From Pseudoalteromonas arctica A 37-1-2 (GTDB lineage: Bacteria; Pseudomonadota; Gammaproteobacteria; Enterobacterales; Alteromonadaceae): a DNA stretch of 64,000 nucleotides. A program made the position numbers and the translations under genes. This document shows, in pieces, positions 29,611 to 35,377 of this stretch (position 1 is the stretch's first letter; every line of letters begins with the position of its first letter). The notes beneath the pieces were generated by a model that saw nothing but the letters and a program-made list of their open reading frames with translations, ran no database searches and had not been told where the DNA came from. Where the stretch lies: NCBI RefSeq assembly GCF_000238395.3, contig NZ_CP011026.1:434001-498000 (forward strand), given 5' to 3'.

Positions 29611-29640
29611 AAGCTAGCCAATACTTTGGCTAGCTTTTTT
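29611..29640 (+). terminator. Terminator of the TetR gene
   Basis: Stem aagctagcca/tggctagctt, 6-nt loop, then a T-run. It separates this gene from the convergent HupE/UreJ gene and may act for both. Confidence 0.88.
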
Positions 29641-29652
29641 ATTTTAGTCTAT

Positions 29653-30765
29653 TTAAAATCGCTCGATTGACCACTGAAGTGCAATGATTGCGATAGCAAC
29701 GGAGCCCATTGGCATTAACCACTTTTTATACCAAGTGTAGTGTCGTACATAAATGAGTATTGGTAAGGCTACTAGTAAGATACTAAGTTGACCGATTTCG
29801 ACGCCTAAATTAAACGCCAATATACTAAGCAGTTGATAGTCGCTCGACAAGCCAAGTTCGCCAAGTACGCTCGCAAATCCCATCCCATGTAGTAAACCAA
29901 AAGCAAAAGTAAGCCAACCTAAACGAAGTACCAACGGCCACACATTATTTAATGCTGCAAATAAAACCGATATAGCAATTCCAAGCTCTACCCAGCGGCT
30001 ATTTGGTGATACAAAGTTCATAGCTGTTGCGGTAAGCGTAATAGAGTGCGCAAGCGTAAACGCGGTTACTATCCATGCTGTGTGTTTAATAATTTGTTTT
30101 TTAGAGCTAATACCTTGCCATGCTTTATCGCTGCGTTTTAAAACACAGGTAAGTAACAGGGCGATTAAAAATAAAATATGATCAATACCAATCCAAATAT
30201 GTAAAACACCCTGATACACGTATTGATTAAACGTACTTAAATAACTTGTTTGCTCAAAGCTGAACGTTTGTTGTGCCTCGTTGATATTAAATACACGAGA
30301 TACACCGTTTATATTTACGATGGATTTATGATTGGCATCGGTATTAAAAAAAGCAGAATAGGAAAGGGAGATTGCTTCATTGTCATCACAACTAAACAGC
30401 AGCGGAATCACCAAATAAGGCTGGTTAAAATGGTTATCTAGTTGATAGATACCTTCACTTTTTATAAGGCATGATTGCGCGTTTTGCGTGATATTTAAAT
30501 TTTCTTCAATGAAGTTATTAATTGAGCTGCGTTTTGCTTTTATTTCTGCCCACGAAATTTGCCCGTTTTTATCTAAATCCAGAGGCACTGCGTGCTCTAA
30601 GTCGGCTATATTTATTTGCCAAGTACCCATGTATTGGTTTTTGTTGGTGTCGTTATTGTTCTCGCTATTTAAGGTTATATAACTTGTACTTAGTTGATGG
30701 GCAAAGCTGTAAGTTGAAAAAATGCACAGCATTAAAGTGAGTATAAATAGATAAGGCGTTTTCAT
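29653..30765 (-). CDS. HupE/UreJ-family membrane protein with N-terminal EF-hand domain
   Basis: A 370-aa protein: signal peptide (1-22), a periplasmic domain of about 160 residues, then about seven TM segments. The membrane half has the HupE/UreJ metal motif H189-x5-D195-H196 and FGLLHGMGF with H293, plus H240. The periplasmic part contains a perfect EF-hand loop D63-x-D65-x-N67-G68-x-I70-x-x-x-E74. HupE relatives are nickel or cobalt permeases; the metal here is not known. Last gene of the DUF4331 module, overlapping the TPR gene by 4 bp. Confidence 0.82.
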   Translation of the reverse strand: MKTPYLFILTLMLCIFSTYSFAHQLSTSYITLNSENNNDTNKNQYMGTWQINIADLEHAVPLDLDKNGQISWAEIKAKRSSINNFIEENLNITQNAQSCLIKSEGIYQLDNHFNQPYLVIPLLFSCDDNEAISLSYSAFFNTDANHKSIVNINGVSRVFNINEAQQTFSFEQTSYLSTFNQYVYQGVLHIWIGIDHILFLIALLLTCVLKRSDKAWQGISSKKQIIKHTAWIVTAFTLAHSITLTATAMNFVSPNSRWVELGIAISVLFAALNNVWPLVLRLGWLTFAFGLLHGMGFASVLGELGLSSDYQLLSILAFNLGVEIGQLSILLVALPILIYVRHYTWYKKWLMPMGSVAIAIIALQWSIERF

Positions 30766-31787
30766 AGTGTGTCTCGTTGCATCGCTTTTGCTTGAGTAAG
30801 TAATTGCTCATCGGTGCTCATTTTAGCCTGTTGCCAATTAATATGAGCCCAGTAAAGTGCTTTTTCGCGATTTGGTTGTACATCAAGGTAATATTTAGCT
30901 AAGTCACTTGCATGAAAAGAATCTTTACGAAGCTCTCGTAGTGTAACTCTTTGCGCCATTGTATTTTGCCATTTTTTATCGCGTTTATTTAGTTTTTTTT
31001 CTGCGATTGAAAGTCTTAGCAAAATAGCATCCTCTAAATTACTTTTATCAGGAAGCAGTACGCTTAATGTATTTAATACTTGTTGTGGTTGATTTAGAGC
31101 AATTTGAATATCGGCCCATAAAACAATAAGGCTCACAGGGGCTTGAACTAAATCTACACTTTGTAAGTGAGACAACGCTTGTTTGTAGTTATTTAAACGG
31201 TAGCTCATTTCACTTAAAACATGGTTTGTAGCTAGGCTAGTTTGATTATTATTTATAATTTTTACTAATGCTTGGTAGCTGTCTAAAACGCTTTCATGTT
31301 GGCTTTGTACATCGAGTACACAGGTGCTAGCAGTAATAGTGCTTACTTGCCCAATTAAGGCTACGCAGTGTTTTTTTGCTTGTGCGAACTTACCTTGAGT
31401 CATAAATATATTGGCTAGCAATAAATGGCTATTACTATGTTTTGGCTCTTTAATCAAAACGTTGTTAGCAATATCAATAGCTTCGTCAAAAAGGTGCTCT
31501 TTTTGTAAAACGCGAGCATATAAGTAACCAATTTGAGATGAGGGTGTTTGTTTATATAGCTGGGCTAAACGGGTTTTAAGTAGCCCCTGTAAGCGCTCTG
31601 TTTGGCCGGCATATTGGCTGTTAGTGACTAATGTATTTATTTCGTCAACAGAGAGGGAAGCACTAAGCGTTGAATTACTGTTAGCAATAACTGCATCATC
31701 TTTTGGGGTAAAAGGCGCAGCGCTTAACGCAAGGGGTGTTAGGCATAAAGTAATAAATGCGACGGACTTAAAAATTGATAAATGCAT
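30762..31787 (-). CDS. Exported tetratricopeptide-repeat protein
   Basis: A 341-aa exported protein: signal peptide to about residue 23 (ALSAAP), then helical TPR-like repeats (for example PKHSNSHLLLANIFMTQGKFAQAKKH) across the rest. TPRs mediate protein contacts. The ATG at 31787 is chosen because AAAGGA precedes it. It overlaps the HupE-like gene by 4 bp, so these two are tightly coupled; the lipoprotein gene is 53 bp upstream. Confidence 0.78.
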   Translation of the reverse strand: MHLSIFKSVAFITLCLTPLALSAAPFTPKDDAVIANSNSTLSASLSVDEINTLVTNSQYAGQTERLQGLLKTRLAQLYKQTPSSQIGYLYARVLQKEHLFDEAIDIANNVLIKEPKHSNSHLLLANIFMTQGKFAQAKKHCVALIGQVSTITASTCVLDVQSQHESVLDSYQALVKIINNNQTSLATNHVLSEMSYRLNNYKQALSHLQSVDLVQAPVSLIVLWADIQIALNQPQQVLNTLSVLLPDKSNLEDAILLRLSIAEKKLNKRDKKWQNTMAQRVTLRELRKDSFHASDLAKYYLDVQPNREKALYWAHINWQQAKMSTDEQLLTQAKAMQRDTL

Positions 31788-31840: not shown

Positions 31841-32350
31841 TTAGTTACCGTTTGTTGAAATTAATCCATCAACATTGGTATCGGTGTTTGTAAACACCCG
31901 ACCGTTAACAGTTAACGGCTCTGCATTTGGGGCTTGATTAAATGCATCGGTTGCAAATTGAGCAAAGTCGACTTGTAGTGCGTCAATTGTAATGTTCACT
32001 GTTGCAGTTACTTGCGAATTAACGCCATCACTTACACCAAACATAAAACTATCTGAACCTGTCACTTCTTTATTCGGTGTATAGGTAAAGTTACCATCGC
32101 TATTAACGGTAACAGTTCCGAGAGTTGGCTCACTTGTTAACGAGTAAGTCAGTGAATCGCCATCATTGTCGGTTGCGCTAAGCATATCGGTAATGCTTAC
32201 TTCAGTTTGTGTAGTTAGTATTGCATCACTTGCTGTAGGCGCTGTGTTTACAACCGGTGTAGGTTGTTTTTTATCGTCATCGCTACTACATGCTCCCAAT
32301 GTTAATGCACTGAGGAGAACACAAATATGGGTAGTTTTTAAATTACGCAT
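31841..32350 (-). CDS. Lipoprotein with one cadherin/Ig-like repeat
   Basis: A 169-aa lipoprotein: lipobox LGAC (C21), an acidic spacer, then a bacterial Ig/cadherin-like tandem-type domain (NTAPTASDAIL...ATDNDGDSLTYSL...GTVTVNSDGNFTYTPN, SDSFMFGVSDG). Acidic DNDGD residues suggest Ca2+. The last 45 residues form an unassigned tail. It follows the DUF4331 gene by 11 bp and belongs to the same operon. Confidence 0.8.
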   Translation of the reverse strand: MRNLKTTHICVLLSALTLGACSSDDDKKQPTPVVNTAPTASDAILTTQTEVSITDMLSATDNDGDSLTYSLTSEPTLGTVTVNSDGNFTYTPNKEVTGSDSFMFGVSDGVNSQVTATVNITIDALQVDFAQFATDAFNQAPNAEPLTVNGRVFTNTDTNVDGLISTNGN

Positions 32351-32361
32351 TATTTTACTCC

Positions 32362-33954
32362 TTATTTAGAGCCAGTAAGTGGTGTTGCAAGGTATGGGAA
32401 TGATGAATTCATCATTGTTGCATCAATAGGCGCGCCGTCTGTAAATGGGACTGTGCCTGTATTAGCATCCTCTGGTGCACAAAGTCCTAAATCAGTGTCT
32501 TCACCATTTACAGGAATAGGATGACATAAACGACCCATCACAACACGAAGTGCAATATCAACCACATCATCACCCGGGCGACGACCATTTGGAAAGCCGG
32601 CTAAATCATTACCCGCTACACCAAATGCAGATTGATCAGCTTGCGCTGTTGCTGCAATGCCTGTATTTAAACGTAGCATCTCTGAAGGTGTTACAGTTGC
32701 TTGCTGATTAACGCCTGCAAAACCTGTTAAAAATGCAGTGATTAAATCAGTACGCGGGAAGTTTGTGGGTGCCAGTGTTTCTAAGTTTGCGCCAAGGGTC
32801 GTATTAACAGCATCTTTAAACAAAATGTTTAATAACTCAGGTAGTGCTGGATGAGATACATAATCTAAAAATTGTGCATCATCTTTAGGGTGAGCAGTAG
32901 AGAATGTGTCTTTGTCTTTAATGCCAATTACAAGCTCGTTTACAAGCGGGCTACCCAAGCGTGAAACTTGTGTTAAAGCACCACCATTAACGGCGTTATT
33001 AGCAAATTTAGCATTAGGGTTTAATACGCGAGCTTGAGGTAGGCTTGCTGTTGTCCACGAACCTATTACGCCGTTACCTTCACCTACAACACAACTTTTA
33101 GGAATTTCGATAGCGATTGACGTTACGTTTTTATCTGCAAGGTCGTCGTTATCAGCTGATTGTGTTATACCACCTGGAAAACCACCGCCGTCACCAGCAC
33201 CAGGGGCGCTATCACCCTCTACAGGTACATAGTTAACTAAATCAAATGTTTTACCTAGGTTAACTACAAATGGGTCTTTACGTTGTCCTACAAAAACTTG
33301 TGCCATGCTTTCACAGTTAGGAATTGAAACCTGATACACAAATTGGTCAGCGTAAGTTTGGTAATCGCTCATTGAACCAAATGTTTTATTGCCCACATAA
33401 TCAAGTGGTTTAGAAAATGTACTTGAGTTTGATGCTGTGTTGTTTAATACCGTTGTTTCGCCAGTACGCTGCGCGCCGCGAATCATGCTCATTGTGTATG
33501 ATTCACTAAAATTTGCAGCGCTGTCATCACCGGCAGATACACCGCCTACATTTTTAAGCGGTACAGACACGGTGCGTTGATTACCTTCAGGTCCAACAGT
33601 TAATTGCACACCTTGGTTATCATTAGGAAGCATGCTTTTAAAGTTAAACGCAAATGTAATATCTTCAACAGCATCGCCGTCGTTATCTATATGAATGCTG
33701 TAGGTGGCATCTGGGTCCATTGCAAAGTAATTAGGACCGCCGTAGGCGTCTTGCAGCGGGATATAGTTAGCAATTAATGTTACAAAATCATCACGACCTT
33801 GCTCGTAACTATTAAATACATAAAAATCGGTTGAATCTAAAGTCGGGAAACGGCTTATATTTGGCGCTTCTCTGTGGCTTGATGCTTCACTTGGTGCACT
33901 TACAAACGTACTACATATTACTACTGCGAGTATTGATGGAGTTAAAGCTTTCAT
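32362..33954 (-). CDS. Secreted DUF4331 protein
   Basis: A 530-aa exported protein (signal peptide 1-24). It begins with the family hallmark SSHREAP, followed by TDFYVFNSYE, and has DNDGD-type acidic loops. DUF4331 function is not established. AAAGGA precedes the ATG. About 37 bp upstream lies an ECF-type promoter signature identical to the one before the adjacent sigma-factor gene. It leads the operon DUF4331-lipoprotein-TPR-HupE. Confidence 0.85.
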   Translation of the reverse strand: MKALTPSILAVVICSTFVSAPSEASSHREAPNISRFPTLDSTDFYVFNSYEQGRDDFVTLIANYIPLQDAYGGPNYFAMDPDATYSIHIDNDGDAVEDITFAFNFKSMLPNDNQGVQLTVGPEGNQRTVSVPLKNVGGVSAGDDSAANFSESYTMSMIRGAQRTGETTVLNNTASNSSTFSKPLDYVGNKTFGSMSDYQTYADQFVYQVSIPNCESMAQVFVGQRKDPFVVNLGKTFDLVNYVPVEGDSAPGAGDGGGFPGGITQSADNDDLADKNVTSIAIEIPKSCVVGEGNGVIGSWTTASLPQARVLNPNAKFANNAVNGGALTQVSRLGSPLVNELVIGIKDKDTFSTAHPKDDAQFLDYVSHPALPELLNILFKDAVNTTLGANLETLAPTNFPRTDLITAFLTGFAGVNQQATVTPSEMLRLNTGIAATAQADQSAFGVAGNDLAGFPNGRRPGDDVVDIALRVVMGRLCHPIPVNGEDTDLGLCAPEDANTGTVPFTDGAPIDATMMNSSFPYLATPLTGSK

Positions 33955-33990: not shown

Positions 33991-34020
33991 ATAACGGGGC
34001 AGGATTTAAATTGGATGCAA
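33991..34020 (-). promoter_or_regulatory. ECF-type promoter of the DUF4331 operon
   Basis: On the minus strand: TTGCATCCAA (34020-34011), a 14-nt spacer, then CGTTAT (33996-33991). The same element with the same spacing precedes the sigma gene. The upstream T6 tract is also shared. Confidence 0.72.
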
Positions 34021-34112
34021 AAAAGTTAAATTATTTTTATTTATTGTTAATAAAGTTTTGAAGAAGGTTGGCTGCTTTATGTAAGCAGCCAACTTTGGTC
34101 ATAATAGTAGGG

Positions 34113-34796
34113 TTATAAAAGTACTAGCTCTGTGGTGTAAAGCACTTCAGTAGGAGAACCATTTTGTGAGCCGCCAATAGGTTCTAAGCTCACTGCTAGC
34201 AATGCAATATCACTTGCGTTAAAACGGTTATCTTTTAATAATATTTTACTGCCTTGCTTGGGAAGTAAACCCAATGAAATAGGTGCATCTTGACCTTTTA
34301 AAATCATCCACAACTCATAATCTTTATTAGTTTGGGCAACCAATTGGCTACTGGCTTTAATTGAGAGCCCTTGCTCGCTTACATCAATAAACCATAATGA
34401 TTGTTTATCTTGATTTTGAACCAAAGCAATTTGTTGAGTGTGCATAACATTGGTACTAGGTTGAATAACCAAAAAGGCTAAAACAATACACGCAGCAGTT
34501 GCCACAAAAGACCATGTACGCCAAATTGAAGGCTTGGTATGTATGACTGTTTTACTTGTTTGTGGCCTGTTTTCAATACGCTGTAGTATATTGACCCATA
34601 CATCGTCACGTGGTGTTTGCGGTGTAATAGCACTCGCTAAGTTGTTTAGGTTTTGCTCCCATATATTTGTTGCTTCACGTGCTTGATTTGAGTTAAGTAA
34701 CAGACGCTGAAAACGCTTACGGGCAAGCCCTCTAAGTGTGCCAAGCACGTACTGCCCAGCAAGCGCGTCTAATAGTTCGGGTTTATTATAATTCAT
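34113..34796 (-). CDS. Anti-sigma factor (RskA/anti-sigma-K type)
   Basis: A 227-aa membrane anti-sigma factor: cytosolic N-terminal helices (ELLDALAGQYVLGTLRGLAR), one TM segment (about 92-112) and a periplasmic RskA-like C-terminal domain with YELWMI and SLEPIGGSQNGSPTE. The ATG at 34796 overlaps the sigma stop (ATGA), typical of coupled sigma/anti-sigma pairs. It should hold the ECF sigma inactive until a signal acts on its periplasmic domain. Confidence 0.87.
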   Translation of the reverse strand: MNYNKPELLDALAGQYVLGTLRGLARKRFQRLLLNSNQAREATNIWEQNLNNLASAITPQTPRDDVWVNILQRIENRPQTSKTVIHTKPSIWRTWSFVATAACIVLAFLVIQPSTNVMHTQQIALVQNQDKQSLWFIDVSEQGLSIKASSQLVAQTNKDYELWMILKGQDAPISLGLLPKQGSKILLKDNRFNASDIALLAVSLEPIGGSQNGSPTEVLYTTELVLL

Positions 34797-35317
34797 AATG
34801 TTAAACACCTTTGTAGCTGCATAAGACCACGCCTGATCCAGCTTTTAACTGTACCTAATGGCGTTTCTATATGATCAACTAGCTCGCTATGACTCAGCCC
34901 CTTATAATAAGCTAAGTGAATAGCTTGTTTTTGTTGCGGCTCAAGCTGTTCGATACAATTAACCAGTTTTGTTTCTTCATCGTAATTAACGTCAACACTT
35001 TCATTTTCATATTCGTCATCGCCTAATGACTGCTCTTTTCGTACTTTGTGATAGCGTAGTGAGTCAAGACTTCTATACCTAACTATACTTATCATCCAAC
35101 TAATAACGGTGCCTTTAGAGGCGTTATATTCAGATGCGTTATGCCAAATTTTTATAAAAGCGTCTTGTAGTGCCTCTTCCGCGTAAGCTCTGTTAGTGAG
35201 CATATTTAAACTAATGGCAAAAAGTTTGCCGCTAGTTTGTTGATATAAACTTGAGAAAGCATTTTTGTCTCCTTGTGCTGTTGCGCACAAAAGAGGGAGT
35301 AAATCATCGTTATCCAT
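34793..35317 (-). CDS. ECF RNA polymerase sigma factor (SigK-like)
   Basis: A 174-aa group IV sigma factor: region 2 (KLFAISLNMLTNRAYAEEALQDAFIKIWH) and region 4 (LEPQQKQAIHLAYYKGLSHSEL...TPLGTVKSWIRRGL). Coupled with the RskA-type anti-sigma gene. The ATG at 35317 is used; the frame could be extended to a TTG at 35377, but that lies inside the -35 element of the gene's own promoter and would be upstream of the transcript start. Confidence 0.9.
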   Translation of the reverse strand: MDNDDLLPLLCATAQGDKNAFSSLYQQTSGKLFAISLNMLTNRAYAEEALQDAFIKIWHNASEYNASKGTVISWMISIVRYRSLDSLRYHKVRKEQSLGDDEYENESVDVNYDEETKLVNCIEQLEPQQKQAIHLAYYKGLSHSELVDHIETPLGTVKSWIRRGLMQLQRCLTL

Positions 35318-35347
35318 AGGGGTCCTGTTTTTCTTATTATCATTGAG

Positions 35348-35377
35348 TAAACGGTTGAGAGTGTGATTTGGATGCAA
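35348..35377 (-). promoter_or_regulatory. Autoregulatory ECF-type promoter of the sigma gene
   Basis: On the minus strand: TTGCATCCAA (35377-35368), 14-nt spacer, CGTTTA (35353-35348). It matches the element at 33991-34020 in both boxes and spacing. It leaves a leader of about 25 nt before the ATG. Confidence 0.72.

Follow-up and report, generated by a model that had tools for sequence, protein, structure and literature searches.

The window considered here, a 64,000-nt stretch of the Pseudoalteromonas arctica A 37-1-2 genome, carries two neighboring gene units on its minus strand. One encodes an ECF sigma factor of the SigK type (34793–35317; 174 aa, start ATG 35317; Pfam Sigma70_r2 and Sigma70_r4_2; best solved relative SigK 4nqw) and, overlapping it, an RskA-type anti-sigma factor of 227 aa (34113–34796; Pfam RskA_C 5e-19). 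An 11-bp terminator-like hairpin without a strong T run follows 3′ of the anti-sigma stop (34067–34093, minus strand; −19.2 kcal/mol, z −5.9); it was not among the listings of the terminator scan. The divergent gene upstream is a phosphatase–lipid kinase fusion (NCBIfam PRK12361).

The second unit begins with the gene for a 530-aa DUF4331 protein with a signal-peptide-like start (32362–33954; Pfam DUF4331 1.6e-154), which shares 64–97% identity with its counterparts at 31 other aligned loci, and continues with genes assigned by Pfam to a small cadherin/Ig-like (Big_9) lipoprotein-like protein (31841–32350), a TPR protein (30762–31787), and a HupE/UreJ_2 membrane protein (29653–30765). Among the best 80 of 579 related loci (the wide set, described below), relatives of these three were found in 78, 73, and 56 loci, respectively, and relatives of the sigma and anti-sigma factors occurred together in 73. 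The HupE/UreJ_2 protein has an invariant HxxxGxDH motif (H189, D195, H196, H240, and H293 are invariant in 20 sequences), and an EF-hand-like DKNGQISWAE lies in its N-terminal part, ahead of the membrane domain. A terminator-like hairpin (29611–29636), with its T-rich tail on the TetR side, sits between the convergent ends of this operon and a TetR gene. The DUF4331 protein itself gave an AlphaFold model too poor for a fold search (mean pLDDT 47.5), and its weak PDB profile matches to complement C3 (E 0.05 or worse) were taken as chance. A full-text search of the literature library used gave no paper containing the word DUF4331, and no DUF4331 sigma regulon appears among the papers listed by the literature searches.

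The initial annotation had discarded a longer sigma reading frame, from TTG 35377, on the grounds that its start would fall within a promoter box. The relatives bear this out: the 21 codons before the ATG carry a stop in 12 of the 25 other loci, which leaves the long frame unsupported, and a GGA-like ribosome-binding sequence before the ATG is kept in most of them.

A Two-Box Dyad Precedes Both Units

A 14-base block, TTTTTTGCATCCAA, is present in two exact minus-strand copies (34024–34011 and 35381–35368), each followed by CGTT. The copy nearer the sigma gene, with core GCATCCAA, and the CGTT at 35350–35353 are the predicted −35 region and −10 box of a sigma-gene promoter; the other copy and the CGTT at 33993–33996 are the corresponding predicted elements of a DUF4331-operon promoter. 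When searched as a dyad, TGCATCCAA-N13..15-CGTT had exactly two matches in the window, both with N14 (34019–33993 and 35376–35350), compared with a mean of 0.01 in shuffled windows, none of 100 shuffles reaching a count of two. The G of GCATCC lies 58 nt 5′ of the sigma ATG (35317) and 64 nt 5′ of the DUF4331 ATG (33954). The dyad thus stands where it had been reported, i.e., on the same strand before the ECF sigma and DUF4331 genes and before no other gene of the window. With up to two mismatches allowed, the count rose to four dyads against an expectation of 1.93, which leaves the exact pair as the only notable matches; TTTTTTGCATCCAA alone, with three mismatches, is unremarkable (15 seen, 22 expected), and the signal is therefore the two-box dyad. 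The 14-nt spacers and the flanks of the two sites differ. Sigma-70-like promoters were no more numerous in the region than in shuffles.

Across the complete genome of the strain (4,721,971 bases, three contigs), TGCATCCAA-N14-CGTT occurs only at the two window sites, with one match for the backwards-pattern control. At up to two mismatches there were 128 matches (the two exact ones included), not above the 142 of the reversed control, and the weaker matches are thus uninformative as a set. Four of the five places with one mismatch (L003, L004, L006, and L007) lie in open frames. The fifth, L005 (G000:C1:1999055–1999081, minus strand; GCATCC-N16-CGTT), lies outside own-strand frames of at least 60 aa. 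The frame that begins 56 nt downstream of it codes for 265 aa, opens with a signal-peptide-like stretch, matched no Pfam or NCBIfam model, and, judged by eye, may be an outer-membrane barrel. L005 is a possible third target in this genome, one such place per genome being well within chance.

Conservation of the Sites

The sigma factor was searched in 99 genomes, that of A 37-1-2 included, and close matches (at least 54% identity) were found in 22 other genomes, 21 of them Pseudoalteromonas. It is present in 22 of 60 genomes of the genus, and DUF4331 occurs in exactly these 22, neither being found alone at the thresholds used. Our near set comprised 25 loci plus the window, including the distant loci L074 and L075 and a 43% paralogue, L073; the last is an additional ECF/RskA pair whose genome carries the main pair as well, and it has neither DUF4331 nor the site. 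The strict motif (GCATCY-N16-CGTW within 200 nt of a start) was fixed after the near set had been inspected. Window included, it precedes 24 of 26 near sigma genes (misses, L073 and L074) and 23 of 25 near DUF4331 genes (misses, L057 and L075), the relatives being non-independent samples. By eye, L057 has one base changed and L075 has a gap of 17 nt. Site-to-start distances are mostly 62–65 nt for DUF4331 (range 53–88) and mostly 49–59 nt for sigma (range 40–174).

The wide set was drawn by scanning contigs with a DUF4331 alignment and keeping the best 80 loci of 579 relatives, some of them from near-set genomes and some from MAGs; it spans Pseudoalteromonas, Alteromonas, Paraglaciecola, Shewanella, Colwellia, Thalassotalea, Rheinheimera, Gilvimarinus, Photobacterium, Kangiella, and other genera. 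Within 200 nt upstream, 66 of these best 80 DUF4331 genes and 47 of 73 sigma genes have the strict motif, as against shuffled means of 0.02 and 0.03, respectively, and none on the opposite strand or with the pattern reversed. A relaxed pattern, set after the misses had been viewed, raised the counts among the best 80 of 579 loci to 75/80 and 57/73 (shuffled 0.47 and 0.38). An unguided count of 5-mer/4-mer dyads in the same best 80 loci ranked GCATC-N17-CGTT top in both sets (57/80 and 32/73), the best dyad in one shuffled set reaching five. Bases outside the pattern are shared as well: among strict matches in the two wide sets (best 80 of 579), T stands just 5′ of the core in 98 and 96%, and A just 3′ of it in 95 and 87%. 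As to specificity, 76 of 797 open frames (at least ~166 aa) in the best 80 of 579 loci have it within 200 nt. Of these, 69 were classed as DUF4331 or sigma; L168 accounts for one more, a DUF4331 gene that starts earlier, and the remaining six are receptor or DUF4198-type genes at four loci. The initial annotation had set a test beforehand, namely whether relatives that have this locus also keep the boxes, and in both the near and the wide set they do. The claimed link of sigma factor and DUF4331 operon through a shared promoter is supported, with self-regulation less widely kept than the DUF4331 site.

Specifically, the sigma site is missing from 26 of 73 loci by the strict and 16 of 73 by the relaxed pattern (best 80 of 579), Colwellia among them. 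Among Colwellia/Cognaticolwellia, sigma is present at six loci (L150, L155, L162, L168, L169, and L203), all of them without a site before it; five have the strict DUF4331 site and L155 has a GAATCC variant. An AGTATA-NTATC-like block, perhaps a housekeeping −10, stands before sigma at L155, L162, L168, and L203; L150 differs. At five Alteromonas loci (L146, L147, L149, L156, and L189), sigma has no site, and a TonB-dependent receptor gene just upstream on the same strand has one in all five. Five of the best 80 loci have no relaxed DUF4331 site, three without a sigma gene in the locus (L170, L192, and L202) and two with one (L172 and L177). At the Kangiella loci L192 and L202, DUF4331 stands with a divergent receptor and without site or sigma in the stretch, which indicates that the operon can live under other control.

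A class-wide draw placed DUF4331 in 23 of 274 genomes, that of A 37-1-2 included, and 18 of the 22 others formed a distant set. The strict site precedes DUF4331 in 8 of these 18 loci and is missing in 10 (shuffled mean 0.016). A sigma gene lies in 10 of the loci, preceded by the strict site in 0 of 10, and in the fetched stretch of the other eight none was found. Together with the wide-set counts, this makes the link between DUF4331 and the site wider than self-regulation, and the switch may be wired differently at this range. Two distant loci have an alike −35 change in both promoters (TGATCC at L238, ACATCC at L241); we treat this as a hint only, since shuffling alone gives the loose pattern in 0.8 of 18 and 0.4 of 10 regions.

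Probable Further Targets in Relatives

In a whole-genome search, GCATCYAA-N14-CGTW was matched 137 times across 24 sigma-bearing genomes, compared with 38 times for the control; the corresponding figures for 24 of the genus's 38 sigma-less genomes were 62 and 25. Twenty of the 137 were picked by eye as promoter-like: eight lie before a TonB-dependent receptor gene (two of these fall within a 5′ extension of the receptor open frame), nine before the gene of a lipoprotein that contains collagen-like and NHL repeats, and three inside other frames. The initial annotation had proposed a genome-wide search for a regulon; in A 37-1-2 this yields no further exact site, and in relatives it adds the receptor and the lipoprotein, with the same site.

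In 84 genomes searched, the receptor was found in 15 and the lipoprotein in 13, all sigma-bearing except one receptor genome (G013, 50% identity). Candidates were partly scored in many genomes; 17 negatives rescored completely were still negative, and in four sigma-less genomes between one and five candidates went unscored. Within the genus, and with kinship uncorrected, the receptor is in 14 of 22 sigma-bearing vs. 1 of 38 sigma-less genomes (Fisher p 2e-7) and the lipoprotein in 13 of 22 vs. 0 of 38 (p 1e-7). The site precedes all 13 lipoprotein genes and 14 of the 15 receptor genes, i.e., the detached receptor has it in every sigma-bearing genome of the genus that has the receptor (14/14). 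The one miss is the receptor of sigma-less G013 (L103), the control of which must therefore differ. The A 37-1-2 genome has neither receptor nor lipoprotein at the thresholds used.

In the wide set (best 80 of 579), tblastn placed a receptor relative in 24 loci. Fourteen of these lie on the same strand downstream of DUF4331, mostly after TPR or HupE, with no site in the preceding 330 nt; at the five Alteromonas loci above, the receptor precedes sigma. Three (L192, L197, and L202) are divergent and without a site, a misfit for L197, where sigma is present. At two Thalassotalea loci (L144 and L152), the receptor is more distant (22–31%) and is joined by a DUF4198-type gene; both genes have a matching site, the DUF4198 type having been assigned by Pfam on the L144 copy. 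Two DUF4198 genes (L144:4444–5166 and L144:5458–6279) stand beside the sigma pair at L144, and the first has the matching promoter site.

A Proposed Sigma-Controlled Regulon and Its Alternatives

From the computed sites and their conservation, synteny, and co-occurrence, we infer with high confidence that the boxes are promoters read by the local SigK-type sigma factor, and that the sigma/anti-sigma unit and the DUF4331-Big_9-TPR-HupE operon form an envelope regulon, probably for uptake, switched by release of sigma from its RskA-type partner. The two promoters, each with −35 GCATCCAA, −10 CGTT, and 16 nt from GCATCC to CGTT, would both be read by the sigma encoded at 35317–34793. The first would drive sigma and anti-sigma, i.e., autoregulation, the second would drive the operon, and the hairpin between the units may separate the two transcripts. 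A membrane-anchored anti-sigma factor would hold sigma until an envelope signal frees it (a step modeled on SigK/RskA), and the released sigma would then switch on both units. In relatives, the same sigma would also drive the TonB-dependent receptor and the NHL/collagen-like lipoprotein, and the regulon would thus build an envelope apparatus, most likely for uptake. Counting against this reading are the sigma genes without a site in the wide and distant sets, the 10 of 18 distant DUF4331 genes without a strict one, the siteless divergent receptor of L197, and the 62 whole-genome matches in sigma-less genomes.

Two linked genes may also share a conserved dyad because it is an operator; the boxes would then bind a regulator common to both units and be no sigma promoter at all. 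We consider this very unlikely, as the half-sites are unlike, the gap is fixed at 16 nt, and the start lies at a median of 63–64 nt from the first box, all of which fits −35/−10 elements; the dyad, moreover, is neither a palindrome nor a direct repeat, and the gene that constantly accompanies it encodes an ECF sigma. Within the genus, the 38 genomes without the sigma argue in the same direction, with no DUF4331, no lipoprotein, and a single receptor relative without the site. A common origin through recent duplication of one upstream region, without function, would account for the 14 exact bases common to both blocks; however, the two sites have unlike spacers and flanks and both persist in other genera, so the sites outlive the similarity of their flanks and this explanation can practically be dismissed.

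The sites could instead be real promoters that another ECF sigma of the cell reads, the local sigma being merely one of its targets. Cross-talk among ECF sigmas is known, the A 37-1-2 genome has five sigma-like matches (the local one included), and many distant loci have no site before sigma. Across the 60 genomes of the genus, however, DUF4331 and the site track the local sigma, whereas relatives of the other ECF sigmas are present in 60 of 60, and the 43% paralogue pair at L073 comes with neither site nor DUF4331. With these distributions in hand, we give a foreign sigma very little credence and retain the local SigK-type sigma as the likely reader of both promoters.

Comparison With Known ECF Systems

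An ECF sigma, its anti-sigma, a promoter of their own, and an adjacent target operon are a common arrangement of ECF systems. The regulon itself is a new one of a known kind, and what is new are the targets and the changing place of the receptor. The GCATCCAA core may resemble the −35 box reported for SigK-type sigma factors (CCATCC-type). By its sequence the sigma is SigK-type (probably of the ECF18/ECF19 kind), with paired cysteines and an RskA-type anti-sigma. SigK 4nqw came first in profile and single-sequence searches, and Cys121/Cys171 align with SigK C133/C183, a pair present in 17 of 18 aligned sigmas, the 43% paralogue included, and absent in L075. As given in PMC7509140, this cysteine pair is conserved in 94% of ECF18, 56% of ECF19, and under 2% elsewhere, M. 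tuberculosis SigK is placed in ECF18, and the oxidation state of its cysteines influences RskA binding; the SigK anti-sigma is placed in AS19-1 in PMC7406223, and the AS19-1 helix motif quoted there resembles the N-terminal LAGQYVLGTL of the anti-sigma here.

The likeness to SigK/RskA of M. tuberculosis thus extends to an adjacent RskA_C anti-sigma, both aligned cysteines, and exported proteins among the targets, with mention of an mpt83-sigK-rskA cassette (PMC7509140). The differences are the Gram-negative hosts and the targets, which here are DUF4331, Big_9, TPR, HupE, and a TonB-dependent receptor, not MPT70/MPT83. SigE of Rhodobacter sphaeroides (2q1z) is the second-best solved relative of the sigma; the window anti-sigma, however, is RskA_C-type and has no cysteine in its N-terminal region, unlike zinc-binding ChrR (PMC7406223). 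FecI/FecR is alike in placing a TonB-dependent receptor gene under an ECF sigma. Signaling of the FecI/FecR kind was rejected, as the anti-sigma is not FecR (RskA_C being its only Pfam match) and the receptor (P0001) has only plug and barrel families, with the plug from residue 38 and no N-terminal signaling domain found.

Probable Role of the Regulon

We propose that the regulon probably serves uptake, as suggested by the receptor, the HupE/UreJ_2 protein with its invariant residues, and the DUF4198-type genes in two loci; nickel or cobalt as substrate is a guess prompted by what the HupE/UreJ family is called. A response to redox or envelope stress, in place of uptake of a metal or metal complex, is a somewhat less favored but serious contender. 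DUF4331 and the NHL lipoprotein are not known to have a transport role, which counts toward stress. So does the pair of cysteines in the sigma, the oxidation state of which affects SigK-RskA in M. tuberculosis (PMC7509140). Against stress stand the TonB-dependent receptor in operon or regulon, the HxxxGxDH kept by the HupE/UreJ_2 membrane protein, and the DUF4198-type gene with a matching site in two Thalassotalea loci. A more speculative reading within uptake, doubtful though worth stating, is that DUF4331, Big_9, TPR, HupE, and the receptor constitute one acquisition machine, not described before, that reaches from the outer to the inner membrane and works under SigK/RskA instead of FecI/FecR; its substrate might be nickel, cobalt, or a metal complex.

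DUF4331 is a strongly conserved exported family, and the regulon supplies it with partners, i.e., sigma, anti-sigma, a HupE-type membrane protein, and a TonB-dependent receptor. Some genera include the receptor gene in the operon, whereas others have it at a separate place behind the same promoter, so that regulon membership appears to be kept despite the moved gene. The promoter could be used as a reporter and as a route to the signal.

The predicted lipoprotein transcripts share one further feature: at L076–L082, L084, L092, and L107, a GAGGTTAAC-like block lies just 3′ of the −10 box and is followed by a start codon, which at L080 and L107 is ATG immediately followed by TAA and looks like a tiny upstream reading frame.
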